Source of the DNA: Acidobacteriota bacterium | GTDB lineage: Bacteria; Acidobacteriota; Vicinamibacteria; Vicinamibacterales; UBA8438 | Reading direction: 5' to 3' | Length of the DNA stretch: 39,113 bases | Assembly (NCBI GenBank): GCA_026706755.1 | Contig: JAPOYG010000567.1 | Coordinates: forward strand, 1 to 39,113 | Shown here: one piece after another, positions 175-18,302 of the stretch | How the letters are laid out: the number at the start of each line of letters is the position of its first letter | How positions within the stretch are numbered: the first letter of the stretch is position 1 | Notes under the pieces: generated by a model | What the model was told of the DNA's origin: nothing | What the model saw: the letters and a program-made list of their open reading frames with translations, nothing else | Database searches by the model: none | Made by a program: the position numbers and the translations under genes

Positions 175-1245
175 ATGGGCAGCTACGAGATCGCATTGAT
201 ACCCGGCGACGGCATCGGGACGGAGGTGGTGCCCGAAGGCGTGCGCGTCCTGGAGGCCGCCGGGCGCCGCTACGGTTTCGAGTGCCGCTGGCGCAGCTAC
301 GACTGGGGCTGCGAGCGCTACGCGCGTGCCGGCGCGATGGCCGACCCCGACTACCTCGACGAGCTGCGCGGCGTCGATGCGATCTACCTGGGCGCGGTCG
401 GCTATCCGGGCGTCGCCGACCACGTGTCGCTCTGGGGACTGCTGATACCCATCCGGCGCACGTTCGATCAGTACGTCAATCTACGCCCGGTGCGCCTGCT
501 GCCCGGGCTGACGTCTCCGCTGGCGGGGCGCACGCCCGAGGAGATCGACTTCGTGGTGGTGCGCGAGAACACGGAGGGCGAGTACTCCGAGATCGGCGGC
601 CGGATGTTCGCCGGGACCGACGAGGAGCTGGTCGTGCAGCAGTCGGTCTTCACGCGGCGCGGAACCGACCGCATCATCCGCTACGCGTTCGAGCTCGCCC
701 GCACGCGGCCCGACCGTCACCTCACCTCGGCGACGAAGTCGAACGGCATCATCCACAGCATGCCGTACTGGGACGAGCGCTTCCGCGCCATCGCGGCGGA
801 GTACCCGGACGTCCGGACCGACCAGTTCCACATCGACATCCTCGCGGCCCACCTGGTGCAGCACCCCGACTGGTTCGACGTCATCGTGGCCAGCAACCTG
901 TTCGGCGACATCCTGTCGGACATCGGCCCGGCCGCCGCGGGCTCGATTGGACTGGCTCCCGGCGCGAACATCAACCCCGAGCGCCGTCATCCCTCGATGT
1001 TCGAGCCCGTCCACGGGTCCGCCCCCGACATCGCGGGCAAGGGCATCGCGAACCCCATCGGGCAGATCTGGACGGGCGCATTGATGCTCGACCACCTGGG
1101 GGAGCGGGAGGCGGCCGCGGCGGTCGTGCGGGCCGTGGAGGAGCAGGTGGCCGGCGGGGAGCGACTGACGCGCGACCTCGGCGGCACGGCCGCCACCGCG
1201 GAGCTCGGCGCGGCGATAGCCGAACGCGTGACGCACGGGGCGTGA
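175..1245 (+). CDS. Tartrate/D-malate dehydrogenase-like (isocitrate/isopropylmalate dehydrogenase superfamily)
   Basis: 356 aa; [82 protein letters not shown] motifs. Confidence 0.88.
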   Translation: MGSYEIALIPGDGIGTEVVPEGVRVLEAAGRRYGFECRWRSYDWGCERYARAGAMADPDYLDELRGVDAIYLGAVGYPGVADHVSLWGLLIPIRRTFDQYVNLRPVRLLPGLTSPLAGRTPEEIDFVVVRENTEGEYSEIGGRMFAGTDEELVVQQSVFTRRGTDRIIRYAFELARTRPDRHLTSATKSNGIIHSMPYWDERFRAIAAEYPDVRTDQFHIDILAAHLVQHPDWFDVIVASNLFGDILSDIGPAAAGSIGLAPGANINPERRHPSMFEPVHGSAPDIAGKGIANPIGQIWTGALMLDHLGEREAAAAVVRAVEEQVAGGERLTRDLGGTAATAELGAAIAERVTHGA

Positions 1246-1294
1246 CGATCGCCCGCGGCCGCGCCGGGCCGCAGGCGATCGTCCGTGCCCGCCG

Positions 1295-2596
1295 CTACAG
1301 GTTGAACCCGCGCTCGTCGTGCAGCGCGAGGTCGAGGCCTTCGCCCTCTTCCTCTGCGTCCACCCGCAAGCCCATCGCGACGTCGAGCACCTTCGCGATC
1401 ACGAAGGTGAGCACGCCCGAGTAGACGATGGTCGCGCCGGCGCCCGCGAACTGGAGGCCGACCTGCTGGCCGATGCCGACGCCCTCCGCAAGGCCCGCTC
1501 CTCCGAACGCCGTCGCCGTGAACACTCCGGTCAGGATGGCGCCGACGAAGCCGCCCACACCGTGCACGCCGAAGACATCGAGCGAGTCGTCGTAGCCCAG
1601 CTTCCGCTTCAGGCTGCTGGCCGCCCAGTAGCAGAGGGCGCCGGACGCGACGCCGATGGCCAGGGCGCCGGCGGGGCCGACCGTTCCCGACGCCGGGGTG
1701 ATGGCGACGAGGCCGGCGACCGCGCCCGTGGCAATGCCGAGCGCGCTCGGCTTGCCGTGCGAGAACCACTCCACGATCATCCAGGTGAGCGCGGCCGTCG
1801 CGGTGGCGATGTGGGTCACCGCCATGGCCATCCCCGCCACCCCGTCGGCGGCGAGCTGGCTGCCCGCGTTGAAGCCGAACCATCCCACCCAGAGCATCGA
1901 CGCACCGACCACCGTGAGCACGAGACTGTTCGGCGGCATCGGCGTCGTGGGGTATCCGGACCGCGGGCCGAGGACGATGCAGAGGACGAGCGCGGCCACT
2001 CCTGCGTTGATGTGCACGACCGTGCCGCCCGCGAAGTCGAGGACGCCCAGATCGCCGAGCCATCCGCCCCCCCACACCCAGTGGGCCACCGGGGCGTAGA
2101 CGATGGTCACCCAGAGCGCCATGAACGCCATCATCGACGAGAACCGCATCCGCTCGGCGAACGCGCCCACGATGAGCGCCGGAGTGATGATGGCGAACGT
2201 GAGCTGGAACATCTGGAACACGGTCTCCGGGATCGTGCCGTTCATCGAGTCCACGCCCACCCCGGAGAGGAAGAACTTGCCCATCCCGACGAACGCGTTC
2301 AGGCCGCCGCCGTCCCCGAACGCCAGCCCGTACCCGTAGACGGTCCACAGGATCGTGACGAGGCAGGTGATGGCGAAGCACTGCATCATCACCGACAGGA
2401 CGTTCCTGGCGCGGACCAGGCCGGCGTAGAAGAGCGAGAGACCCGGAATCGTCATGAACAGAACGAGCACGGCCGACGTGAGCATCCAGGCCGTGTCTCC
2501 CGAGCTCAGGCCGTCCTGAGCCCAGGCGGTGCGCGGGACGGCGACGGCGAGCGCTCCGCCCAATCCGATCAGAACGGCTTTCGACTTGAACCTCAT
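1295..2596 (-). CDS. amtB: Ammonium transporter (Amt family)
   Basis: 433 aa with signal-like N-terminus; GLSLFYAGLVRARNVLSVMMQCF, DFAGGTVVHINAG, GWFGFNAGSQL; downstream of a P-II gene. Confidence 0.95.
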   Translation of the reverse strand: MRFKSKAVLIGLGGALAVAVPRTAWAQDGLSSGDTAWMLTSAVLVLFMTIPGLSLFYAGLVRARNVLSVMMQCFAITCLVTILWTVYGYGLAFGDGGGLNAFVGMGKFFLSGVGVDSMNGTIPETVFQMFQLTFAIITPALIVGAFAERMRFSSMMAFMALWVTIVYAPVAHWVWGGGWLGDLGVLDFAGGTVVHINAGVAALVLCIVLGPRSGYPTTPMPPNSLVLTVVGASMLWVGWFGFNAGSQLAADGVAGMAMAVTHIATATAALTWMIVEWFSHGKPSALGIATGAVAGLVAITPASGTVGPAGALAIGVASGALCYWAASSLKRKLGYDDSLDVFGVHGVGGFVGAILTGVFTATAFGGAGLAEGVGIGQQVGLQFAGAGATIVYSGVLTFVIAKVLDVAMGLRVDAEEEGEGLDLALHDERGFNL

Positions 2597-2802
2597 GCGT
2601 ATGCTGCCCCTCTCTCCACGGCGTGCGCGGCCGGCCGCGGCGTCAGGTTCACGGCGCCGATGTATGGGTTGCGCTTGCCCGGATTGCGGCGCACCGGACC
2701 GGGGTCGCGGAGGGCGACGCCCGGTCGCGCCGGGCGCTTCCCCCGCTCACCCTCCGCGGCTCGGCGGCAGGTGTCGTCGCGATCCCGGAGCGCGCCGGGC
2801 GG

Positions 2803-3141
2803 TCAGAGCGCGTCCGGTCCCGATTCCCCGGTTCGGATCCGCACGACCTGCTGCATGTCGCTGACGAAGATCTTGCCGTCGCCGATCTGGCCCGTGCGCC
2901 CGGAGGTCTTGACGGCGTCGACGATCGCCTCCGCCCGATCGTCGGCGACGACGATCTCGAGCTTGATCTTCGGCACGAAGTCCACCGAGTACTCGGCGCC
3001 GCGGTAGATCTCCGTGTGGCCCTTCTGGCGGCCGAAGCCCTTGACCTCGGTAGTCGTCATGCCGGCGACGCCGAGGCGCGAAAGGGCGTCGCGAACCTCG
3101 TCCAGCATGTGCGGCTTGATGATCGCGGTGACCAGCTTCAT
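2803..3141 (-). CDS. glnK: P-II nitrogen regulatory protein
   Basis: 112 aa; [21 protein letters not shown]-loop [27 protein letters not shown] Shine-Dalgarno upstream; paired with amtB. Confidence 0.95.
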
Positions 3142-3235
3142 TCTGCGGCTCCTTCCCCGGCGGGCGGTCTCCCGGCCCTGGTCGGGCTCGCGGATTGCGG
3201 CCCGCGGACCGGCGCCACTATATCAAGCGACGGCC

Positions 3236-5020
3236 TCAGGCCGCCGCGAAATCCGGGAGCGCACCGCCCCGTTCGATGAGCGCACGGGCGATCCGGCCGT
3301 CCAGGGCGATGCGGTCCGCCGGCAGGGGCAGGCGCCGATCGACCGCCGCGAGAGCGTCTCGCAGATCGTCGCCGGCGTGCAGCCCGCTCAGAAGCGCGGC
3401 GGCCTCCTGGCGGACGCGGCCGGCCGCCCGCTCGAACGCGAGACGAGCGAGCTCCGCCGCGAGCGAGGTGTCGGCGCCGGGCCTGCTTTCCTCGAGCCTG
3501 CGGACGCGAAGGGCCGTCGACTCCGCGGCGTAGAGCTCGATGGCCGCCGTGGCGATGGCGCCGAGATAGCCTTGCCGGTCGTCGTCCAGGAGCCGGTCGG
3601 TTCCGAACCGCGCCACCGCCTGCGACAGCAGGTCGAGGCAGATCGCACGCAGGCCCGCCACGGGGCCGCGGAGCGCCGCGGCGCGGGCGGGGTCGCCTCC
3701 GGGAGCCTCGAGCCGGAGCGGCAGGATCGGCCGCGGAAGCTCGAGCGACCCGCGGTCGAGACGCTTCAGCATCGCCTTGCCGATCGACAGCCGGCAGATC
3801 TCGCTCGTGCCCTCGTAGATGCGCGTGATCCGCGAGTCGCGGTACATGCGGGCGACCGGGTAGTCTTCGCTGAAGCCGTTCCCGCCGAAGATCTGCAGCG
3901 CCTCGTCGGCGAGACCGTGGTACGTCTCGGTGCCGAACACCTTCGCCATGGCGCACTCGGCGGAGAACTCGGCCAGCGTGGCGAGCTTCGCGTCGAGCGA
4001 GTCGCGCGCGCCGTCGTCGAGCGCGCCGAGCGCCGTGTAGACGAGGCCCGCGGTGCGATAGGCGACCGACTCCGCCGCGTAGGCGCGTGCCGCCATCTCG
4101 GCCAGCTTGGCCTGGATCAGCCCGAAGCTCGCGATGGGGCGACCGAACTGCTGCCGCTCCGCCGCGTACGCGCAGGCCGTGGCCAGCGCCTTCTTCGACG
4201 TGCCGGCGCAGTTGGCGGCCATCTTCATCCGCCCGAGGTTGAGCGTGCAGAGCGCCACCCGGTGCCCCTTGCCGATCTCTCCGAGCACGTTCTCCACCGG
4301 AATGGCCACGTCCTCGAGCGTCAGGGCGCAGACCGACGAGCCGTGGAGCCCGAGGAGACGCTCGTGGGGACCGACGGTCAACCCCGGCGTCTCGCGCTCG
4401 AGCAGGAAGGCGGTGAACCTCGTCCCGTCCACCTTGGCGAACAGGATGAACAGGTCGGCCCAGCCGGCGTTGGTGATCCACTGCTTCGCGCCGTTGACGA
4501 CGTAGTGCGTGCCGCGCTCGTCGAGGACCGCCGTGGTGCGGATGTTCATGGCGTCCGACCCCGAGCCCGGCTCCGTCAGGGCGAACGCGGCCATGATGCG
4601 GCCGTCCATGCAGCGTTGGAGATAGCGGGCCCGCTGCGCCTCGGTGCCGAAGTTGATGAGCGGCAGCGTGCCGATGCCCTGGTGCGCGAAGACGGTGGAG
4701 GCCAGGCCGCCGAACGCGGAGCGCTTCTCGCTCATCCCGGCGATCGCGAGGACATTGAGCCCCAGCCCGCCGTGCTCCTCCGGGACCTCCGCCATGAAGA
4801 TGCCGAGGTCCGCGGCCTTGCGGAAGAGCGGCAGGATGACCTCCTCGTCCCGCTGCTCGATGCGCTCGAGGTGCGGCGCGACCTCCTGGGCCGCGAACTC
4901 CTCGATGGACCGCATCAGGAGGCGCTCGTCCGCCCCCATGTCGTCGGGAATGACGATCTCGTCGGGTGAAGACTCGTCGACGAGGAACCGGATGCCGCGA
5001 AGCCGGGACGCTACGCTCAT
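3236..5020 (-). CDS. Acyl-CoA dehydrogenase family protein with C-terminal extension (about 594 aa)
   Basis: ACAD signatures (FALTEPGSGSDAMNIRTTA, QIFGGNGFSEDYPVARMYRDSRITRIYEGTSEI); start taken at MSVASRLRG, preceded by GGAG; about 200 aa beyond the core domain. Confidence 0.9.
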   Translation of the reverse strand: MSVASRLRGIRFLVDESSPDEIVIPDDMGADERLLMRSIEEFAAQEVAPHLERIEQRDEEVILPLFRKAADLGIFMAEVPEEHGGLGLNVLAIAGMSEKRSAFGGLASTVFAHQGIGTLPLINFGTEAQRARYLQRCMDGRIMAAFALTEPGSGSDAMNIRTTAVLDERGTHYVVNGAKQWITNAGWADLFILFAKVDGTRFTAFLLERETPGLTVGPHERLLGLHGSSVCALTLEDVAIPVENVLGEIGKGHRVALCTLNLGRMKMAANCAGTSKKALATACAYAAERQQFGRPIASFGLIQAKLAEMAARAYAAESVAYRTAGLVYTALGALDDGARDSLDAKLATLAEFSAECAMAKVFGTETYHGLADEALQIFGGNGFSEDYPVARMYRDSRITRIYEGTSEICRLSIGKAMLKRLDRGSLELPRPILPLRLEAPGGDPARAAALRGPVAGLRAICLDLLSQAVARFGTDRLLDDDRQGYLGAIATAAIELYAAESTALRVRRLEESRPGADTSLAAELARLAFERAAGRVRQEAAALLSGLHAGDDLRDALAAVDRRLPLPADRIALDGRIARALIERGGALPDFAAA

Positions 5021-6073: not shown

Positions 6074-7111
6074 GTGGTCTGCCTCGCGCTGGTCGCGGGG
6101 TGGTGGTTCGCCGCGGGGTCATGGCTCGTGGAGACCGCGGGCGGCGAGCGAGGTGCGCCCAGTGCGGAGCGCCCGCAGCAGGTCGAGCGCACCGTCTACC
6201 TGATGGGCACGCTGGCCCGCTTCGTCGCCGAGACGCGGGACCGCGAGACGGGCCTCCAGCGACTCGAGCGGATGGTGCAGGTCGTGGAGGCGACGGAGGC
6301 GGAGCTCAGCACCTGGCGGGAGGACAGCGTCCTGAGCCGGCTGAACCGGCAAGCGGTCGGCGTCCCCCATCCGGTGCCGGCATCCGTCTGCGACCTGGTC
6401 GGGCGCCTGACGACATGGCATGCCGCGACAGGGGGAGCGTTCGACCCCGCCGTCGGGCGCCTCGTCGACGCCTGGGGCCTGCGCGGTTCGGGGCCGCCCC
6501 CCGGCGGCTCGCGTCCGGACGAGGCGGCGGCGGGCTTCCGGCACATCGCGTTCGACCGGGCAGCGTGCACCGCCGCCCGCCAGGCCCCGGTGACGCTCGA
6601 CGCCGGCGCGTTCGGCAAGGGCGAGGCGCTGGATCGCGTGCGCCGCGCGGATTCCGGCACGGAGGGCGCCTGGCTGGTCGACTTCGGCGGGCAGGTGGCG
6701 GTGTCGGGACCGGGGGCGGACGGCCCGTGGCCGGTGGACATCGCCCACCCGGAGCAGCGCGCGGAGCCGGCGGCGACGCTCGGCTTGACGGACGGATCGA
6801 TCGCGACCAGCGGCCCCTCGGACCGGGACCTGCGTCTCGACGATGGCCGGCGGCTTGGTCACATCCTCGATCCGCAGTCGGGCCGTCCGGTTCTCCGCTC
6901 CGCCTCGGTGACCGTCTGGCACGAGCAGGCTTTCGTGGCGGACGTGCTGTCGACTGCGCTCTACGTGATGGGCGCCGATGCCGGCCTGGCCTGGGCCCGC
7001 GAGCGCGGCCTCGCGGCCGCCTACCTGATCGCGGACGACGCTTCCGGCGGCGTCCGGCTGCGGGCGACCCCCGCGTTCGAGGAACGCTTCGGGCGGCTGC
7101 AGAAGAACTGA
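6074..7111 (+). CDS. apbE: FAD:protein FMN transferase (ApbE family), membrane/lipoprotein-like N-terminus
   Basis: MGTLARFVAETRD, STWREDSVLSRLNR, TGGAFDPAVGRLVDAWG, DAGAFGKGEALDRV, GHILDPQSGRPV; start uncertain (GTG at 6074, frame is open further upstream). Confidence 0.9.
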   Translation: MVCLALVAGWWFAAGSWLVETAGGERGAPSAERPQQVERTVYLMGTLARFVAETRDRETGLQRLERMVQVVEATEAELSTWREDSVLSRLNRQAVGVPHPVPASVCDLVGRLTTWHAATGGAFDPAVGRLVDAWGLRGSGPPPGGSRPDEAAAGFRHIAFDRAACTAARQAPVTLDAGAFGKGEALDRVRRADSGTEGAWLVDFGGQVAVSGPGADGPWPVDIAHPEQRAEPAATLGLTDGSIATSGPSDRDLRLDDGRRLGHILDPQSGRPVLRSASVTVWHEQAFVADVLSTALYVMGADAGLAWARERGLAAAYLIADDASGGVRLRATPAFEERFGRLQKN

Positions 7112-7899: not shown

Positions 7900-7960
7900 C
7901 CTGACGGAAGCGTTGGGGGTCTGCGCTCGCGCGGAGTCCGTAGCCGGCGGCGCAGACTCC
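7900..7960 (-). repeat. Dispersed palindromic repeat, copy A
   Basis: Minus strand GGAGTCTGCGCCGCCGGCTACGGACTCCGCGCGAGCGCAGACCCCCAACGCTTCCGTCAGG; ends are complementary; aligns with copy B at 22894-22962. Confidence 0.65.
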
Positions 7961-10788
7961 TAGTTGCCGGCTCGGAGGGGGCTCGGCCCACCCCGGAAGG
8001 TGAGCAGGTAGTCGCGGATGGCCTCCATCTGGCGCTCCCCGTCCTGGCCGAACTGCGGGTAGAACGACCCCGGCAACTCCGTCCAGAGCATGGGCATCCG
8101 GGTGCCGGGCTGGATGGCGAGCGGCTCCCGCAGCCAGTCGAGAATCCAGTCGGGCTGCAGGCGCTCGGACGCCATGCGCAGGTCGGGCGCGAGGTTGTCC
8201 GTCGGCTGATCGGCCGGAATCGTGTCGAGCACGTGACACTGCTGGCAGCGCAGCAGATCGAACAACTCCCGCCCTTCCGGCGGCACCTGCGCCAGGGTCA
8301 CCGGATCGTGCGTGCGGAACGGCCCGACGACGTCCGAGATGGCCGCGAAGTAGTCGAGCGCGACGTTCCAGTGCTGGTCCTCGAGGCCGAAGCTCGGCAT
8401 GCGGACGTCGAGCCACGGCCGGATCGTGATCGGCTCCCGGAAGAACGCGTAGAGCCATTCCGGCCGGACCTTGGCTCCCTCCGGCGTCAGCATGGGGGGC
8501 GCCAGCGACGGATCGTCGAGCAGGTCGACGTAGTCGCCGCCGTCCGCCTCGATCTCGTGGCAGCCGACGCAGTTCCGCCTCCGGACCAGGTTGCGTCCCT
8601 CCCGCAGCGCATCGTGACGGGCCGACCGGGGAACCTGGGCAGCCAGCGGCTGCACGTCGGTCTGGAAGCTCATGATGGCCGTCGCGAAGAGCGTGACCTC
8701 CTCTTCGCTCATGCCGAAGTCGGGCATCCGCAGCTTCTCGAGCGGCTGCAGCACGCGGCTGCGATCGAACGCCCGCGGGTCGCGCATCTTCTGCTTGAAC
8801 CACTCGATCTTCGTGTGCGGAATGTCGTGCACGAAGGCGAAGTCGAGCAGCGCCAGGAGCTTGCTCCCCTGCTCCGAGAGCTCGATGCCGATCGGCTGCG
8901 TCTCCTCGAACCCGGCGATGTCGTGACAGCCATAGCAGCCGTAGCGCCCGATGACGCGCCGCCCGAGGTCGAGCTGCCGCTCCTCGACCGACATCCCGGC
9001 GACGAGCTCCTCCGCCTCCGCCGTCGGCAGGACGGAGCGGACGTAGTCCAGGAGCACGTCGCCGACCTCGCCGTCCTCGTAGGTGGCCTCCGCCGGCCGT
9101 CCCGCGGAGCCGGTGAGACCCTCCAGGTAGGCCGCCACGTCGGCCACTTCGCGGTCCGTCAGCCGCAGGTCCGGCATGAACGTCTCGCTGCTGAAGTGCC
9201 GCGGATCGCGGACCCAGTCGAAGAGCCACTCGTAGCTCACCTTGTCGCCGATGCTCTGCAGCGGCTGCCCGAACGTGCGTCGCGGACCGGCTTCGAGGCG
9301 TGACTCGTCACCGACGATGTGGCAGGCGAGGCAGCCCACCGACGCGACGATCTCCTCGCCGCGGGCCGGGTCGCCGCGCGGCGGGCGCCGCACCGCGAAC
9401 TCGTGGTCCTCGGAGTTGGCGAACAGGTAGGCGACCACCGAATCGATCTCGACCTCGCTCCGGCGGGCGTCCTCCGGCGAGTCGGTGTTCGAGTTGTACC
9501 ACACGCGCGGCATCCAGGTGCTGGGCTTCACCGCCCGCGGGTCGCGGATCCAGTCCGCGACCCACTCCGGCGTGAGCTTCGCCCCGATGCGCGTCAGGCT
9601 CGGCCCCGGCTTGCGCAGGCCGTCGAAGCCGCGGGTCCGGTGGCAGGCGTAGCAGCCGGCCCGTTCGTAGAGGCCGTAGGCGACGTTGAGGTTGGCGGCC
9701 TCGGGCACGTACACGGTGTCCTTGTGGCACCTGGCGCACGAGGCCTCTGTCATCTCCGTCGGCAGCATCGGGTAGTCCCACAGGTGGGGCACTGCCCAGT
9801 CGTACTCCTCTTCCCAGCGATGCGTCTGCTCGTCCCCCGTCGGCGTGTGCGACGAGTGGACGAAGCCGACCGACTGCGCCATGCCGTCGTGGCAGACCGA
9901 GCACCCCGTGGAGCCGATCGGATGCGGCGACGCGCTCCCGACGTAGGTTTCGAGGTTGGAGTGCGTCCGGAACGGTTGCGGGTAGTCCTCGAAGCCTTCC
10001 CGGTCGATCGCCAGATGGCAGGTCTGGCAGCGGTCCATCTTCGGCACCCGCGTGAAGTTCACGTCGTCGACGACGTTCGGCGTGATGGTCTGCTGGACGG
10101 TCAGCGTCGGGGCCATGAAGTCGAGCAGCGGCGCGTTCAGCAGGTAGTCGTTGACGAAGTCCACCTCGAGGTCGACGAGGAGCGCCTCGAGGCGCGTCGT
10201 CTCGGCCGTGATCTCCCGGATCTCCGCGTCCGCGTCGCTGACGCCTCCCGTGAACTCGCGAATCTGCTCGCGAAGACCGTCCCGGTCGGCGGTGAGGCGC
10301 TCCACCTCGAGCCCCAGCTCGACCCAGCGCTCGTACATCGCGTCGATCTCGGGGCGCAGCCCCTCCGCCTCCTCGGGGTGCTCCGCCTGCACCTCCTCGA
10401 AGGCGTAGCGTTCGACGTCGTAGTCCGCCTTCTGGAAGTTGAAGTTCTGGTTGGCGAGATAGAGCTCCGCCTCCACGTCCTCGAGCTGGCTCTGGAGCTC
10501 GTCCACGCGCTGCCGGTTCAGCAGCAGGGTCTGCTCGGCCTCGGCGCGCTGGGCGCGCAGCTCCTCGAGGCGCCCCTCGTCGACCGCCTCCTGCGCCGCA
10601 TCCAGGTTGAGACGCGTGACCTCCGATTCGAGCAGCACGAACTGCCGCTGGTAGCCCTTCCACTCGCGGTCGTAGTCGTCCCAGATCATCCAGATGCTGG
10701 TCAGGAACAGAAACAGACACGACGCGGCGAAGACGACGTTCAGGAAGTCGACGTTGTAGGCGTGTCCAACGCTCTTTTTGTCAGCCAT
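7960..10788 (-). CDS. Membrane-anchored coiled-coil octaheme cytochrome c of a Rieske/cytochrome b complex
   Basis: 942 aa; N-terminal TM (FLNVVFAASCLFLFLTSIWMIW), charged helical segment about aa 40-210, eight CxxCH motifs (CQTCH, CSVCH, CARCH, CYACH, CLACH, CYGCH, CVGCH, CQQCH); co-directional with cytochrome b/Rieske genes. Confidence 0.93.
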   Translation of the reverse strand: MADKKSVGHAYNVDFLNVVFAASCLFLFLTSIWMIWDDYDREWKGYQRQFVLLESEVTRLNLDAAQEAVDEGRLEELRAQRAEAEQTLLLNRQRVDELQSQLEDVEAELYLANQNFNFQKADYDVERYAFEEVQAEHPEEAEGLRPEIDAMYERWVELGLEVERLTADRDGLREQIREFTGGVSDADAEIREITAETTRLEALLVDLEVDFVNDYLLNAPLLDFMAPTLTVQQTITPNVVDDVNFTRVPKMDRCQTCHLAIDREGFEDYPQPFRTHSNLETYVGSASPHPIGSTGCSVCHDGMAQSVGFVHSSHTPTGDEQTHRWEEEYDWAVPHLWDYPMLPTEMTEASCARCHKDTVYVPEAANLNVAYGLYERAGCYACHRTRGFDGLRKPGPSLTRIGAKLTPEWVADWIRDPRAVKPSTWMPRVWYNSNTDSPEDARRSEVEIDSVVAYLFANSEDHEFAVRRPPRGDPARGEEIVASVGCLACHIVGDESRLEAGPRRTFGQPLQSIGDKVSYEWLFDWVRDPRHFSSETFMPDLRLTDREVADVAAYLEGLTGSAGRPAEATYEDGEVGDVLLDYVRSVLPTAEAEELVAGMSVEERQLDLGRRVIGRYGCYGCHDIAGFEETQPIGIELSEQGSKLLALLDFAFVHDIPHTKIEWFKQKMRDPRAFDRSRVLQPLEKLRMPDFGMSEEEVTLFATAIMSFQTDVQPLAAQVPRSARHDALREGRNLVRRRNCVGCHEIEADGGDYVDLLDDPSLAPPMLTPEGAKVRPEWLYAFFREPITIRPWLDVRMPSFGLEDQHWNVALDYFAAISDVVGPFRTHDPVTLAQVPPEGRELFDLLRCQQCHVLDTIPADQPTDNLAPDLRMASERLQPDWILDWLREPLAIQPGTRMPMLWTELPGSFYPQFGQDGERQMEAIRDYLLTFRGGPSPLRAGN

Positions 10789-11971: not shown

Positions 11972-12787
11972 CTAGAGCGGCCCCGAGATGCCGCCGTCCT
12001 TCCGCACGCGCCAGAAGTGGACCGCCATCAGGAAGCCGATGGCGAGCGGCAGGGCGACGCAGTGGAGGACGTAGAAGCGCAGCAGCGCCCCCTCCCCGAC
12101 GAACGTCCCGCCCAGCAGGGCGAAGCGGGCGTCGGCGGCGGCGTGAATCAACTGCACGTCGCCCAGCGCCAGCAGCGACGCCCCGGGCCCCTCGTAGCCC
12201 AGGAAGGGCGTGGCGCGCGCCATGTTCGAGCCGACGGTGATCGCCCAGATGGCCAACTGATCCCAGGGCAGGAGATAGCCGGTGAACGAGAGCAGCAGCG
12301 TGAGCACCAGCATGATGACGCCGACGTTCCAGTTGAACTCGCGCGGCGGCTTGTACGACCCGGTCATGAAGACGCGGAACATGTGCAGCCACACGGTGAT
12401 GACCATGGCGTGGGCGGCCCAGCGGTGCATCTCGCGCATGATCCCGAGCGGGACGTGCTCCCGCAGGCCGACGATGTCCGAGTAGGCGTACTCGAGCGTC
12501 GGCCGGTAGTAGAACATGAGCAGCACACCCGTGAACGTCAGGTTCAGGAACAGGAAGAAGCTCAGCCCGCCCATGCACCACGTGTAGCGCAGGCGCACAC
12601 CGTGCTTCTTCAGCCGCACCGGATGCAGGTGCAGAAACACGTTCGACAGCATGACCAGGACCCGGTTGCGGTCGTTGATTGGCGCCGCATGCCGGAAGAC
12701 GGATGTCCAGATCTGCGTCTCGGTCAGCCAGTTCCAGAACCGGACGAGCGAGCTCTCCTGCGGTTCAATCGTCTTCGCGTCGGCCAT
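11972..12787 (-). CDS. Cytochrome b N-terminal part, cytochrome b6-like
   Basis: About 271 aa from [50 protein letters not shown] and [21 protein letters not shown] heme-ligand His pairs, [11 protein letters not shown]-terminus. Confidence 0.94.
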
Positions 12788-12803: not shown

Positions 12804-13481
12804 CTATACCTGCAGGAAGGCCTCGGGGTCGGTCCACTGCCCCAGCTCTTCCTGGAACTTCCTCGACTTGTCGACCATGATCTGGCCGTCATCGGCCAGG
12901 ACGATGCGGGCCCGCTCCAGCGGCCGCGGCGCCGGCCCCTCGAAGTTGATCCCGGTAGGCCGGAACCCGCTCCCGTGGCACGGGCACTTGAACTTGCTCT
13001 CGGCCGACAGCCAGTTCGGCGTGCAGCCGAGGTGCGTGCAGGTGACCAGCAGGGCGTAGAAGCCGGCCGCCTCGTGGTAGTCGTCGAACGCCGTACGGAC
13101 GACCCAGACGCCAAAGGCGTTCTTCCAGCGCTCGTCCACGCCGTCGCCGTAGTCGCCGGGGAAGCCGATCGTGAACTGCTGCGGCGGCTCGTTCAGCACG
13201 TTGGGGAACATGAAGCGGGCCGTTCCGCCCACCATGCAGCCGACGAACGACGCGGTGAAGGCACCCCACGCGAGGCCAATCCAGCCGCGACGCCCCATCA
13301 GCGGCGAGCTGTCGTCTGCCGCGGGGGCCGCCTTGCGGGGTGCCCCGCGGGCGGCGGCGGTTGTCGTCCGTCCCGCCAGCGCCGGGTTGGGCGCGGGCGG
13401 GGCGGCAGCCTTCGGCTTCGGCTTCGCCGGCGGAACGGCACCGGCGGGCGGCGGGTTCACGGGACCATCAGTCTCGGCCAT
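12804..13481 (-). CDS. Rieske [2Fe-2S] protein with Pro/Ala/Lys-rich N-terminal extension
   Basis: CTHLGC and CPCHGSGF cluster-binding motifs; single N-terminal hydrophobic anchor preceded by RR; start at MAETDG (13481), ORF could extend to 13520. Confidence 0.93.
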
Positions 13482-13532
13482 CGTCGCTCCCTGCTCCGTC
13501 TCTCCTGTCGCGACCGGCAACGCACCGCCCGG

Positions 13533-14471
13533 TCAACGGATCGCCTGCGCCGCATCCCCGACCTGCCGGGGTCCGGATGCCAGCGCGTCCAGCGTTTCGA
13601 GCGCGGCGTTGCGGACCCGCAGGCTCGCATCGTTCTCGCTCAGCGCCCGGATCTGATCGGTCAGATCGCCCGACCCGAGCGCCGCCACCGCCTGCAACGC
13701 GCTCACCATCACCGCGGCGACGGGATCGATCGCATCCTGCGGCGTCGGCGCGAGCGTCACCATCCGCTCGACGTACGGCCGATCGATCATCCGCCGCAGC
13801 ACGGGCAGGCCGTCGTCGAGGCCGTGCCGCGCCAGCGCCACGGCGGCGTTCCACTGCACGTCGGCAACCGGGTCGTCGAGCGCGTTGCGCAGGGTGGCCA
13901 TGTGCCCCGTGCCCGGCAGCGCGCCGAGCGCATAGATGGACATCTTGCGCACCCCGGCGTCGTCCGCGAGATACATCGCTTCGATGTCGCCGATGGTGCC
14001 CGGATCGCCGAGCGAGGCGAGGGCCCAGATGACGCTGATCCGGACCTCGGTATCGGGACTGCCGAGCGCCTTCACGAGCTCGCCGGCCGCGTCCGGCGGC
14101 GCGTTGTTGAGCCGCCCGACCGCCAGGGCCAGGTACTGGCGCACGCGGGGGTCGTCGCCTTCGGAGTCGACGAACGCCTGCACGATGGCGGCCCCGATGT
14201 TCGGATGCCGGACCTCGGTCTGCGGATCGGCGAGCAGGCGCGACAACTCGAAGGCGGCTGGCCAGCGGCGCTCCCGGCCCCCCGTACGCACGTCGCTCAG
14301 AAATTCCTCGGGCGTTCGCTCGGTCGTCACCAGCGCCCGGAAGCCCCCGTAGACGAGCACGATGACCCCGACCACCGCGAGCGGTATCAGGAAGAACTGA
14401 ACCGCCAGCGCGGGGGCCTTTGCGAGGCGACTCGCACGCAGCCCGGACTCGCGCTCAACCAGCTTGTCCAT
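13533..14471 (-). CDS. Membrane-anchored HEAT-repeat protein
   Basis: N-terminal TM (ALAVQFFLIPLAVVGVIVLVYGGF) then HEAT-like alpha repeats (VRISVIWALASLGDPGTIGDIEAMYL, VRKMSIYALGALPGTGHMATLRNAL, VQWNAAVALARHG); directly upstream of the Rieske gene. Confidence 0.8.
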   Translation of the reverse strand: MDKLVERESGLRASRLAKAPALAVQFFLIPLAVVGVIVLVYGGFRALVTTERTPEEFLSDVRTGGRERRWPAAFELSRLLADPQTEVRHPNIGAAIVQAFVDSEGDDPRVRQYLALAVGRLNNAPPDAAGELVKALGSPDTEVRISVIWALASLGDPGTIGDIEAMYLADDAGVRKMSIYALGALPGTGHMATLRNALDDPVADVQWNAAVALARHGLDDGLPVLRRMIDRPYVERMVTLAPTPQDAIDPVAAVMVSALQAVAALGSGDLTDQIRALSENDASLRVRNAALETLDALASGPRQVGDAAQAIR

Positions 14472-14579
14472 TCGTACGTCTTTGGGGGAACCGCGAACGT
14501 GCCCAGCTGCGCCGCGATGCATGGCATCCGCCCTTCCGGAATGCCAATCCTGCACCAGCGATCGCCTGACGGGCACCGA

Positions 14580-14609
14580 ATAATACTACGGACGTGTCGT
14601 TCGCAGCAA
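14580..14609 (-). promoter_or_regulatory. Candidate sigma70-type promoter for the HEAT/Rieske/cytochrome b/octaheme operon
   Basis: Minus strand TTGCTG (14604-14609), 18-nt spacer, TATTAT (14580-14585), in the 209-bp gap upstream of the HEAT-repeat gene. Confidence 0.35.
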
Positions 14610-14680
14610 GGCGGGACGGGGACGGATCCGGCCTCCCGACGGGTGCCGCCCAGGGCGCCGGTCGGGCCTCCGTCGCGCGC

Positions 14681-14875
14681 TCATCGGCGCAGGAAGGCGA
14701 GGAGGAGGGTGAGCACGATGCTGGCCAGCGCGCAGGTGGCGAGCGGGAGGTGGAGCGTGACGTTACCGCGCCGCAAGACCAGATCGCCCGGCAGGCGTCC
14801 CAGCGGCACGCCCGCCATGAGCAACGCTCCCCCGGCGGCAAGGAGGAGACCGACGACGATCAGCAGTCGGGCCAT
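14681..14875 (-). CDS. DUF2905-family small membrane protein
   Basis: 64 aa, MARLLIVVGLLLAAGGALLMAGVPLGRLPGDLVLRRGNVTLHLPLATC...LLLAFLRR; GRLPGD motif and two TM helices. Confidence 0.8.
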   Translation of the reverse strand: MARLLIVVGLLLAAGGALLMAGVPLGRLPGDLVLRRGNVTLHLPLATCALASIVLTLLLAFLRR

Positions 14876-14905
14876 GCGCGTCGCCGGCTCCGCGGCGCAG
14901 ACTCC
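14876..14905 (-). repeat. Dispersed palindromic repeat, partial copy C
   Basis: Minus strand GGAGTCTGCGCCGCGGAGCCGGCGACGCGC; its first 13 nt (GGAGTCTGCGCCG) are identical to copy A and, as there, overlap the TAG stop of the upstream gene. Confidence 0.5.
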
Positions 14906-15321
14906 TACCGGGCGAACTCGACCCCTCGGAAGAAGAACGCGAGCTCCGCGGCGGCGGTTTCCGGCGCGTCCGACCCGTGCGTCGCGTTGTGCTCGATGGA
15001 CGTCCCGAACTCGTGGCGCAGGGTCCCCCGTTCCGCCTCGCCGGGGTTGGTGGCGCCCATCACCCGCCGCCAGCGCACGATCGCGTCGGAGGCTTCCAGC
15101 GCGAGCACGACCGCCGGGCCGGACGACATGAAGCTGGTGAGAGAGTCGAAGAAGGGCCTGTTCCGGTGCACGTCGTAGAACGCCGCGGCCTCTCCGCGCG
15201 TCAGTCGCACGAGGCGCATCGCCGCGATCCGGAAGCCCTCGGCCTCGATGCGCCGGACGATCGAGCCCACGAGGCGATGCTCCACGGCGTCCGGCTTGAT
15301 GATGGCGAGCGTCCGCTGCAT
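14905..15321 (-). CDS. ndk: Nucleoside-diphosphate kinase
   Basis: 138 aa; MQRTLAIIKPDAVEHRLVGSIVRRIEAEGF, MGATNPGEAERGTLRHEFG, NATHGSDA. Confidence 0.97.
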   Translation of the reverse strand: MQRTLAIIKPDAVEHRLVGSIVRRIEAEGFRIAAMRLVRLTRGEAAAFYDVHRNRPFFDSLTSFMSSGPAVVLALEASDAIVRWRRVMGATNPGEAERGTLRHEFGTSIEHNATHGSDAPETAAAELAFFFRGVEFAR

Positions 15322-15325
15322 GAGG

Positions 15326-16375
15326 TCACCGCAAGTCGTCCATGATGGCCTCGAGCACCGGCTCCGGCGGACGGACGCGCTCCTGCGGCAGGAACGCCAG
15401 CGGCTCGTCCACGAGATTCAGCATCTCGATGAAGTCCGGCTTCGTCGGCTCGACGTAGATGAGGCCGGTCGCGAACGTGCCCCGCGAACGCGTCTCCTGC
15501 AGGACCGACATCGCCTGCAGCTTGTTGCGCGGGTCGTAGTCCTCGGCGAGCTTCGTCAGGTAGAGCGTCGAGCCGTCGTGCAGCGAGACCTCGTGGGTCG
15601 TCCCGGGCTCGTAGTCGACGTCGATCTCCTCGAAGTACGGCACGAAATCGAGCTCGCCCAGCGGATCGTCGTGGCTCTTCGCGTACGCGTAGCTCTTGGT
15701 CGAGCCCTCGTGGTCGTTGAACGTGACGCACGGCGACAGCACGTCGAGCATGGCCGTGCCCCGATGGCTGAGCGCGGCCTTCAGGACCGCCGACAGCTGC
15801 TTCTTGTCGCCGGAGAACGAGCGCGCGACGAAGGAGGCGCCCAGCTCGATGGCCAGCGCGCACGTGTCGATGGGCGGCAGGTCGTTCACGACGCCGGTCT
15901 TCAGCGTCGATCCCAGATCGGCGGTCGGGGAGAACTGCCCCTTCGTCAGACCGTAGCAGCCGTTGTCCTCGATGATGTAGATGATGGGCAGGTTGCGGCG
16001 CATCAGGTGGACGAACTGCCCGATGCCGATCGCGCCGGTATCGCCGTCGCCGCTCACCCCTACGGCCACGAGCCGCCGGTTCGCCAGCATCGCCCCGGTG
16101 CCGACCGACGGCATGCGGCCGTGGACCGCGTTGAAGCCGTGCGCCGAGCCCAGGAAGTAGGCCGGGCTCTTGCTCGAGCAGCCGATGCCCGAGAGCTTGA
16201 CGACACGATCCGGATCGATGCCCATCTCGAAGCAGGCGTGGATGATGCGCTCCGAGATCGCGTTGTGGCCGCACCCGGCGCACAGCGTCGTCTTCGTGCC
16301 GCGGTACTCCTGCGACGCCAGTCCGATGCGGTTGACCTTGCCCTTCCCCGCCGGCGGTGTTCCAACGGTCGCCAC
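15326..16375 (-). CDS. korB: 2-oxoacid:ferredoxin oxidoreductase, beta subunit (probably 2-oxoglutarate)
   Basis: LCAGCGHNAISERIIHACFEMGI, GDGDTGAIGIGQFVHLMRRNLPIIYIIEDNGCYGLTKGQFSPT (TPP-binding). Confidence 0.93.
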   Translation of the reverse strand: MATVGTPPAGKGKVNRIGLASQEYRGTKTTLCAGCGHNAISERIIHACFEMGIDPDRVVKLSGIGCSSKSPAYFLGSAHGFNAVHGRMPSVGTGAMLANRRLVAVGVSGDGDTGAIGIGQFVHLMRRNLPIIYIIEDNGCYGLTKGQFSPTADLGSTLKTGVVNDLPPIDTCALAIELGASFVARSFSGDKKQLSAVLKAALSHRGTAMLDVLSPCVTFNDHEGSTKSYAYAKSHDDPLGELDFVPYFEEIDVDYEPGTTHEVSLHDGSTLYLTKLAEDYDPRNKLQAMSVLQETRSRGTFATGLIYVEPTKPDFIEMLNLVDEPLAFLPQERVRPPEPVLEAIMDDLR

Positions 16376-16406
16376 GTCGCCCTTTCGTGCGCCTCGACGG
16401 ACGCGG

Positions 16407-18302
16407 TTACTCGCCCCCGACGCCCGCGCTCTGCGGCACGTCGGACGGCTCGGCCCGGGTGGTCTCGACCCGGTAGCCCTCCTGGATCAGAATGCTCTCG
16501 GTGATGGTCCGCGCATCGATGGGATGGCCGCTGTAGTGCAGCACGCTGCGCAGCCGCCCGGCCAGCTCCGGCGCCAGATCGAGCTTCATGAGCGACAGCA
16601 TCTGCGCATCGCGGTTCTGCTCGATGACGTAGACGCGGTCGTGCCGCTCGACGAACGACGTCAGCGCGTCGCGGAACGGATAGGCGCAGACGCGGTAGTA
16701 CGAGGTCTGGACGTCCTCCTCGTTCACGAGCTGGTCGCGGCTCTCCACGACCGCCCAGTGCGTCGTCCCGTAGGCGATCACGCCGATCGACGCCTTGCGG
16801 TTGATGGTGACCACGGGCGCCGGCAGCCAGTTGCGCGCCGTCTCGAGCTTCGATCGCAGCCGGTCGATGTTCTTCCGGTAGTCGTCGGGGCGCTCGCTGT
16901 ACTGCGCCCACTCGTTGTGGCCCGAGCCGCGGCAGAAGTAGGCCGGCATCGAGTCGCCGGGAACGCTGCGGTAGGGGATCCCGTCACCATCCACGTCCCG
17001 GTAGCGCCCGAACTTGCCGATCCGATCGAGCGTCTCGGCGTCGAGCACCTTCCCCCGGTCGAGCGGCTTCTCCGGATAGCGGAACGGCTGCGACATCCAG
17101 GTGTTCATGCCGAGGTCGAGGTCGGTCATCACGAAGACCGGCGTCTGGAACCTCTCGGCGAGGTCGAACGCCTCGATGGCCATCGTGTAGCACTCCTCGA
17201 CCGACGAGGGAAACAGCATCATGTGGCGCGTGTCGCCGTGGGAGAGGAACGCCGTGGACAGCACGTCACCCTGCGCCGTGCGGGTCGGGAGCCCCGTCGA
17301 CGGTCCCACGCGCTGCACGTCGAAGATGACCGCCGGGACCTCCGCATAGTGCCCCAGCCCCGCGAACTCGCTCATCAGCGAGACGCCCGGTCCGGAGGTG
17401 GACGTCATGCTGCGCGCGCCCGCCCAGCCGGCCCCTATCGCCATGCCGATGGCGGCAATCTCGTCCTCGGCCTGCACCACGGCGAAGGTTGCCTTGCCGC
17501 TGTCCTTGTCGATGCGGTGCTGCCGGAGATAGTCGATGAGGGTCTCGCACAACGAAGACGACGGCGTGATCGGGTACCAGGTGACGACGGTGACGCCGGC
17601 CATCATCGCCCCGATGGCGGCCGCTGCGTTGCCGTCGATCAGCACCTGGCCGGCGGTGGCGTCCATCGGCTCGACGAGGTACGGATCCCGCTTCTCGAAA
17701 TGCTGCTCGGCGTATGCGAAGCCGACGTCGAGCGCCTCCCGGTTGAGGGCCACGGCCTTCGGCTTTCGCCCGAGCTGCTTCTCGAGCGCCCGCTCCATCT
17801 CTGCGCGGTCAATCTTGAGCAGGCTCGCCAGCACGCCGTCGTAGATCATGTTGCGCACGAGGCGCCGCAGCTTGGCATCGCGGCACACCCCGGCGACCAG
17901 CTTGTCGAACGGCACGGGGTAGAACGTGAGGTCGTCGCGCAGGGTGGCCAGGTTGAGCGGCTCGTCGTAGACCACGGCGGCGCCCGGCCCGAGCGACACC
18001 ACGTCCTCCTGCGCCGTCTGCGCGTTCATGGCGACGAGGAAGTCGATGTCCTGCTTGCGCGCGATGTAGCCGTCGCGGTTGGCGCGAATCGTGTACCACG
18101 TGGGCAGTCCGGCGATGTTCGACGGGAAGAGGTTCTTGCCCGAGACGGGGATGCCCATCCGGAAGATGGAGCGCAGCAGCACGAGGTTCGCCGTCTGGCT
18201 CCCCGAGCCGTTGACGGTCGCGACCTGTATGCTGAAATCGTTGACGATCCGGCGGGTTGTGGGTTGGGAGGGAGCTTCCTGGACCGCGACCTCGGGTGCC
18301 AT
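16407..18302 (-). CDS. korA: 2-oxoacid:acceptor oxidoreductase, fused gamma/alpha subunit
   Basis: 631 aa; GSGSQTANLVLLRSIFRMGIPVSGKNLFPSNIAGLPTWYTIRAN, GVTVVTWYPITPSSSLCE, ARSMTSTSGPGVSLMSEFAGL; next to korB. Confidence 0.93.
   Translation of the reverse strand: MAPEVAVQEAPSQPTTRRIVNDFSIQVATVNGSGSQTANLVLLRSIFRMGIPVSGKNLFPSNIAGLPTWYTIRANRDGYIARKQDIDFLVAMNAQTAQEDVVSLGPGAAVVYDEPLNLATLRDDLTFYPVPFDKLVAGVCRDAKLRRLVRNMIYDGVLASLLKIDRAEMERALEKQLGRKPKAVALNREALDVGFAYAEQHFEKRDPYLVEPMDATAGQVLIDGNAAAAIGAMMAGVTVVTWYPITPSSSLCETLIDYLRQHRIDKDSGKATFAVVQAEDEIAAIGMAIGAGWAGARSMTSTSGPGVSLMSEFAGLGHYAEVPAVIFDVQRVGPSTGLPTRTAQGDVLSTAFLSHGDTRHMMLFPSSVEECYTMAIEAFDLAERFQTPVFVMTDLDLGMNTWMSQPFRYPEKPLDRGKVLDAETLDRIGKFGRYRDVDGDGIPYRSVPGDSMPAYFCRGSGHNEWAQYSERPDDYRKNIDRLRSKLETARNWLPAPVVTINRKASIGVIAYGTTHWAVVESRDQLVNEEDVQTSYYRVCAYPFRDALTSFVERHDRVYVIEQNRDAQMLSLMKLDLAPELAGRLRSVLHYSGHPIDARTITESILIQEGYRVETTRAEPSDVPQSAGVGGE

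Follow-up and report, generated by a model that had tools for sequence, protein, structure and literature searches.

An open reading frame at positions 7960-10788 of the 39,113-nucleotide stretch of DNA analysed here (the window) had been read from its sequence as the gene of a modular octaheme cytochrome c, whose monoheme domains would have arisen by serial duplication and might form a heme wire; the operon context was missing from that reading. The question that the locus raises is what a protein with eight hemes does in the cell, i.e. whether it is a wire in its own right, an enzyme or a part of a larger complex.

Reading frame, layout and fold of the octaheme protein

The region is filled by a single ORF encoding 942 amino acids (P0001), a candidate c-type subunit according to its reading frame, its CxxCH motifs and its Pfam matches. 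The ORF lies on the minus strand; the original prediction gave no strand. The eight CxxCH motifs had been claimed at residues 254, 296, 351, 379, 486, 618, 740 and 848, and these positions are exact in the ORF. Shuffling the protein 2000 times gave a mean of 0.0075 CxxCH motifs and a maximum of 1, which rules out a chance origin. Pfam matches were obtained with Cytochrom_C (6.8e-25), CBB3 and FixO, and the top NCBIfam score was that of SoxX (TIGR04485, 9.2e-27). An ApbE-family gene (flavin transferase; window 6074-7111, plus strand) is convergent with the octaheme gene, and an isochorismatase-like gene lies between them.

All parts of the proposed modular plan, i.e. a transmembrane helix, a helical arm, a triheme segment and five monoheme domains, are present in the protein (coordinates in this paragraph refer to the minus strand). 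Hydropathy analysis predicted one transmembrane segment only, at residues 18-36, and an AlphaFold2 run of the octaheme protein with 30 orthologues, the models of which contain no heme, placed there an N-terminal helix at residues 13-39 (10672-10752), followed by long helices at residues 42-207 that make up a helical (coiled-coil) arm of about 170 residues (10168-10665) and by small helices round each heme site. The triheme segment (residues 240-362; 9703-10071), recognised by conservation, carries CxxCH 254, 296 and 351 and the conserved His 276, 289 and 314. The class-I-like monoheme domains D4 (9385-9693; CxxCH 379, Met 426) and D5 (9091-9384; CxxCH 486, Met 538) were recognised by Pfam, conservation and profile alignment, D6 (8644-8991; CxxCH 618, Met 688) by conservation, profile alignment and a tree (97/94), and D7 (8323-8625; CxxCH 740, Met 797) and D8 (7984-8307; CxxCH 848, Met 898) by conservation, the domain tree and profile alignment. 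The W..W/P...MP repeat described after each of the last five CxxCH motifs was found in five out of five cases.

Since a fold search with the full-length model was dominated by coiled-coil matches, a separate model of the heme part was built and used for searching. This model had a pLDDT of 89 and a pTM of 0.86, and this confidence argues for a fixed arrangement of the heme part rather than for beads on a string. A single known multiheme fold, which had been named as the observation that would speak against repeated cytochrome c folds, was looked for with Foldseek against the PDB, and none was found. The search matched only single class I cytochrome c domains (SoxX) or diheme cytochromes c, with no whole-length multiheme match and no E-value below 0.001, and because of this pattern the heme part, as modelled, is not one known multiheme fold.

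Conserved heme ligands and origin of the monoheme domains

Relatives within the phylum supplied 29 further loci with eight CxxCH motifs each, and a scan of named genomes added many more from other phyla. The eight motifs, Met 426, 538, 688, 797 and 898, and His 276, 289 and 314 are kept in 94 out of 94 long-form sequences, a set that includes the window and was selected for at least seven CxxCH motifs; in two full-length exceptions outside this set, the absent motifs correspond only to ambiguous bases (X). In agreement with this, all CxxCH motifs, the five MP Met and the three His are invariant in a 64-row alignment (window residue = column + 214) of sequences with 32-76% identity to that of the window. 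The simplest reading of these patterns is that three bis-His hemes in the triheme part would be followed by five His/Met hemes, His 276, 289 and 314 being the proposed distal ligands of the triheme hemes, and the conservation of the five Met in every long form aligned lends support to the MP Met as candidate axial ligand, as originally suggested. Because short 8-heme forms (L044, L046, L132, L133, L141 and L144) do not keep the Met of the last domain or the third of the extra His, at least two hemes are probably ligated differently in these proteins.

Profile-profile alignment of D4-D8 gave E-values from 1e-7 to 2e-31. When the CxxCH and MP columns were masked, nine of the ten domain pairs still matched with E-values from 2e-6 to 1e-22, and the D6-D8 pair dropped to 0.004; under the same masking, the column-scrambled, triheme and coiled-coil controls gave no match to the D4-D8 profiles, and the triheme segment was without homology to these domains. 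As judged by profile comparison, the five monoheme domains are homologous.

Within the same phylum, Rieske/cytochrome b operons encode relatives with six, seven or eight hemes. The transmembrane helix, the triheme segment and two monoheme domains, and thereby hemes 1-5 alone, are common to the three forms, and the number of later domains varies. When a tree was built from the shared core, a well-supported branch set apart each of the 6-heme, the 7-heme and the long 8-heme forms, and for the short 8-heme forms the support was weak. In the domain tree, D6 and D7 of the 8-heme forms each cluster by position, D6 being orthologous between short and long 8-heme forms (97/94), and the domain or domains after D5 in the 6- and 7-heme forms, i.e. 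the sixth and the seventh, sit among ordinary monoheme cytochromes. AU tests on 107 columns, with groups named after inspection of the tree, rejected the placement of all D6 together (p 0.006) and of all D4-D8 of every form together (p 0.004), but not that of the 8-heme D4-D8 with all D4-D5 (p 0.22). With these post hoc groupings, the tests reject one serial duplication as the source of the domains in every form. The serial duplication of the original prediction holds in part, i.e. a common origin of D4-D8 is compatible with the data within the 8-heme forms and does not extend to the domains at the C-terminus of 6- and 7-heme forms, for which the tests are suggestive of an origin other than that of the 8-heme D6-D8. 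Judging from the orthology of the domains by position across phyla, the duplication is ancient.

Among the proteins measured, the spacer between the transmembrane helix and heme 1 has 217 residues in the window, 215-227 in the remaining long 8-heme forms and about 50 in the 6-heme, the 7-heme and most of the short 8-heme ones, with 197 in the short-form ORF L132; the predicted helical arm is a module, like the C-terminal domains. Octaheme relatives of 1244-1516 residues, with the eight hemes still in register, were observed in Planctomycetota (L259 8864-13411 and L258 9397-13128). About 1.5 kb downstream of the seven-heme gene, four out of four seven-heme operons carry an ORF for a monoheme cytochrome c, about 195 residues long (L129 3009-3590, L130 9313-9894, L131 2749-3336 and L140 9115-9714), a possible electron acceptor.

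Operon partners and proposed electron path

The octaheme gene is the last one of a minus-strand operon with the order HEAT-repeat protein, Rieske protein, cytochrome b6, subunit-IV-like protein and octaheme cytochrome c. The first gene (13533-14471; 312 residues; Pfam HEAT_2, 1e-20) encodes a membrane-anchored HEAT-repeat protein, with a transmembrane segment at residues 20-38 of the 310-residue fragment analysed, and the second one (12804-13481; 225 residues) a Rieske [2Fe-2S] protein with the CTHLGC and CPCHGSGF motifs, assigned by Pfam Rieske, b6f-type PetC matches and conservation. The cytochrome b6-type protein (11972-12787; 271 residues; Pfam Cytochrome_B, PRK03735 cytochrome b6 and ExtP, conservation) carries the b-heme His pairs 121/135 and 242/257 with the b6 spacing (14/15), and Cys71 (TWCMGG), at the heme-ci position of cytochrome b, is present in 83 out of 83 sequences covering the column; from the motif match, we take it to be the position of b6 Cys35. 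The subunit-IV-like protein (P0002; 10799-11875; 358 residues; Pfam Cytochrom_B_C and NCBIfam cytb6_f_IV) has eight predicted transmembrane segments and the Qo motif KAPWYF, which is found in 90 out of 90 sequences covering the site.

The complete gene order recurs in about 70 fetched loci from at least eight phyla, including Acidobacteriota, Planctomycetota, Omnitrophota, Neomarinimicrobiota, Bdellovibrionota and Spirochaetota. The operon is also present in a cultured relative, Bacteriovorax BSW11_IV (L111). Of the 95 loci that could be tested (not deduplicated), 71 have a HEAT gene close to the Rieske gene, and no such gene was found there in any short 8-heme, 7-heme or 6-heme operon; no report of a HEAT-containing version of the complex was found in the literature searched. 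Because the operon order with the Rieske, b6 and subunit-IV genes is kept to this extent, the octaheme protein is very probably, with a likelihood that we estimate at roughly 0.87, a periplasmic protein serving as the c-type subunit of a quinol-oxidising, b6f-like complex of Rieske protein and cytochrome b.

For such a complex, we infer the assembly, the heme ligation, the direction of electron flow and the order of the hemes as follows. Cytochrome b6 and the subunit-IV-like protein would oxidise quinol at their Qo site; one electron would pass to the b hemes (b, b and probably ci), and the other one to the Rieske cluster and from there to the octaheme subunit, which would be held by its N-terminal helix and reach round the complex with its helical arm. 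The octaheme hemes would then conduct this electron to an acceptor that docks close to the C-terminal domain. Bis-His hemes usually have a low potential, which makes them poor as the first to take electrons from a Rieske cluster of high potential. Should the triheme hemes be of this kind, the cluster more likely reduces a His/Met heme, which may be the entry point, the triheme segment having another job.

The cytochrome b of the octaheme operon is the sole cytochrome b match in the genome, which also encodes an aa3-type oxidase and in which class I cytochrome c domains were matched 77 times. An alternative complex III is encoded as well (ActBCD-like; FeS/NrfD/ActD-like genes), and its presence is against the bc complex being the only route from quinol to a c-type carrier.

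Anammox relatives, alternative readings and comparison with known complexes

The Rieske/cytochrome b complexes of Kuenenia stuttgartiensis were modelled in 2025, with the long helices of the octaheme subunit Kustd1485 wrapping the complex, and NAD(P)H formation by low-potential bifurcation was proposed for them (PMC12954380). The same study numbered Ser114 and Phe116 of the Rieske protein Kustd1480, a homologue of which has a cluster at 335 mV, and His62, Arg266 and Lys267 of the cytochrome b Kustd1481, which are used by an unexpected interface heme b in the AlphaFold3 model (PMC12954380). The counterparts of the latter three residues in the window, His53, Arg262 and Lys263, show 95-100% conservation across 87 homologues that come from many phyla, which suggests that the interface heme b, if real, may be general to the octaheme Rieske/cytochrome b class.

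One locus from a Planctomycetota genome search, L251, has the order Rieske, b6, a 570-residue NAD(P) oxidoreductase, subunit IV and octaheme, and its Rieske Ser114/Phe116 and cytochrome b His62/Arg266/Lys267 bear the residue numbers published for Kustd1480/1481. Because these numbers are equal to those of PMC12954380, L251, identified by residue numbers and not by name, is on this evidence Kuenenia or nearly identical to it. The octaheme proteins of the window and L251 align over their full length with 29% identity and with the eight CxxCH motifs, three His and five Met all in register; this alignment shows the homology of the window protein to the Kustd1485-type subunit, and the two proteins fall in different, sister groups of long forms. 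A gene for the NAD(P) oxidoreductase (Pyr_redox_2 + Fer4) is present in the L251 and L254 operons and was not found in the window operon or its HEAT-bearing relatives. At L252, a large molybdopterin oxidoreductase gene (13114-16467, minus strand; Pfam Molybdopterin, TAT signal), possibly encoding a nitrite oxidoreductase, adjoins an anammox-like octaheme/Rieske/b6 operon, and L253 contains an equally long ORF (835-4191; 1119 residues).

These comparisons bear on the alternative readings. Bifurcation towards a low-potential acceptor, which has been put forward for Kuenenia, instead of a normal Q cycle would fit the homology to Kustd1480-1485, the common Rieske Ser/Phe pair and the shared His of the interface heme b (window His53 = Kustd1481 His62; PMC12954380), but we regard it as quite unlikely, given that the NAD(P) oxidoreductase gene of the anammox operon is absent from that of the window and that the other HEAT-bearing long-form loci have subunit IV after b6, with no room for an oxidoreductase. 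A serially duplicated wire that stands alone, serves extracellular or long-range transfer and adjoins bc genes by accident would account for the eight hemes, the five homologous monoheme domains and the single-domain matches to soluble cytochromes c. This is nevertheless a very unlikely reading of a protein that is anchored in the inner membrane, is homologous to a subunit modelled in the Kuenenia complex, has no outer-membrane or porin partner in its operon and keeps its gene order with Rieske, b6 and subunit IV across at least eight phyla; it is because these genes adjoin that we favour a subunit of the bc complex over a wire.

We give even less credit to a catalytic octaheme with one heme as active site (e.g. 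for the reduction of nitrite or sulfur compounds), like the HAO-like octahemes. The eight hemes and the top SoxX score would suit such an enzyme, but a candidate distal ligand is conserved for every CxxCH motif (three His and five Met), with no obvious open heme site, and searches of Pfam, NCBIfam and PDB sequences and folds gave no similarity to HAO, OTR or NrfA.

In the usual picture, complex III is either bc1 or b6f, with a c subunit that has one or two hemes. With the bc-complex reading preferred, multiheme Rieske/cytochrome b complexes form a known class that has received little study, and the window complex is a variant of it that has a HEAT protein and lacks the NAD(P) oxidoreductase. 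An eight-heme complex III with conserved partners would be common in Acidobacteriota and several little-studied phyla and have a core of five hemes in common with relatives of six and seven hemes, the anammox version with its NAD(P) oxidoreductase being one branch of a larger group, and the family offers comparative material on the purpose of the many hemes. In a tentative and rather doubtful extension, such complexes would make up a class of complex III that is widespread and as yet undescribed, with a HEAT subunit, a wrapping octaheme arm and an extra interface heme b, and would pass quinol electrons through a fixed heme chain straight to a partner oxidase without soluble cytochrome c.

Among known systems, the HAO/OTR-type octahemes differ from the window protein by their compact multiheme fold and their sequence family. 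Cytochrome b6f has in common with the window complex a four-helix b6 with a ci-type Cys, a subunit IV and a Rieske protein with both cluster motifs; however, the window has an octaheme cytochrome c instead of cytochrome f, a HEAT protein in addition, and a subunit IV with eight predicted transmembrane segments and APWY (KAPWYF) where b6f has PEWY. The actinobacterial QcrC of the bcc-aa3 supercomplex, although it has only two hemes, no triheme segment and no arm, is likewise a multi-domain class I cytochrome c serving as c1 equivalent, with fold and profile matches per domain (NF050122). Kustd1480-1485 resembles the window complex in its split b6/subunit IV, its Rieske Ser/Phe pair and its octaheme c with an N-terminal transmembrane helix and a long helical arm, whereas the anammox operon includes an NAD(P) oxidoreductase gene and no detected HEAT gene, the reverse of the window operon. 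An octaheme c beside a b6-like operon has been described in Nitrospina, Kuenenia and Methylomirabilis (PMC3578206), and, compared by that description, the complexes of Nitrospina gracilis and Methylomirabilis oxyfera are like that of the window in having a Rieske protein, a split cytochrome b and an octaheme c as sole c subunit.
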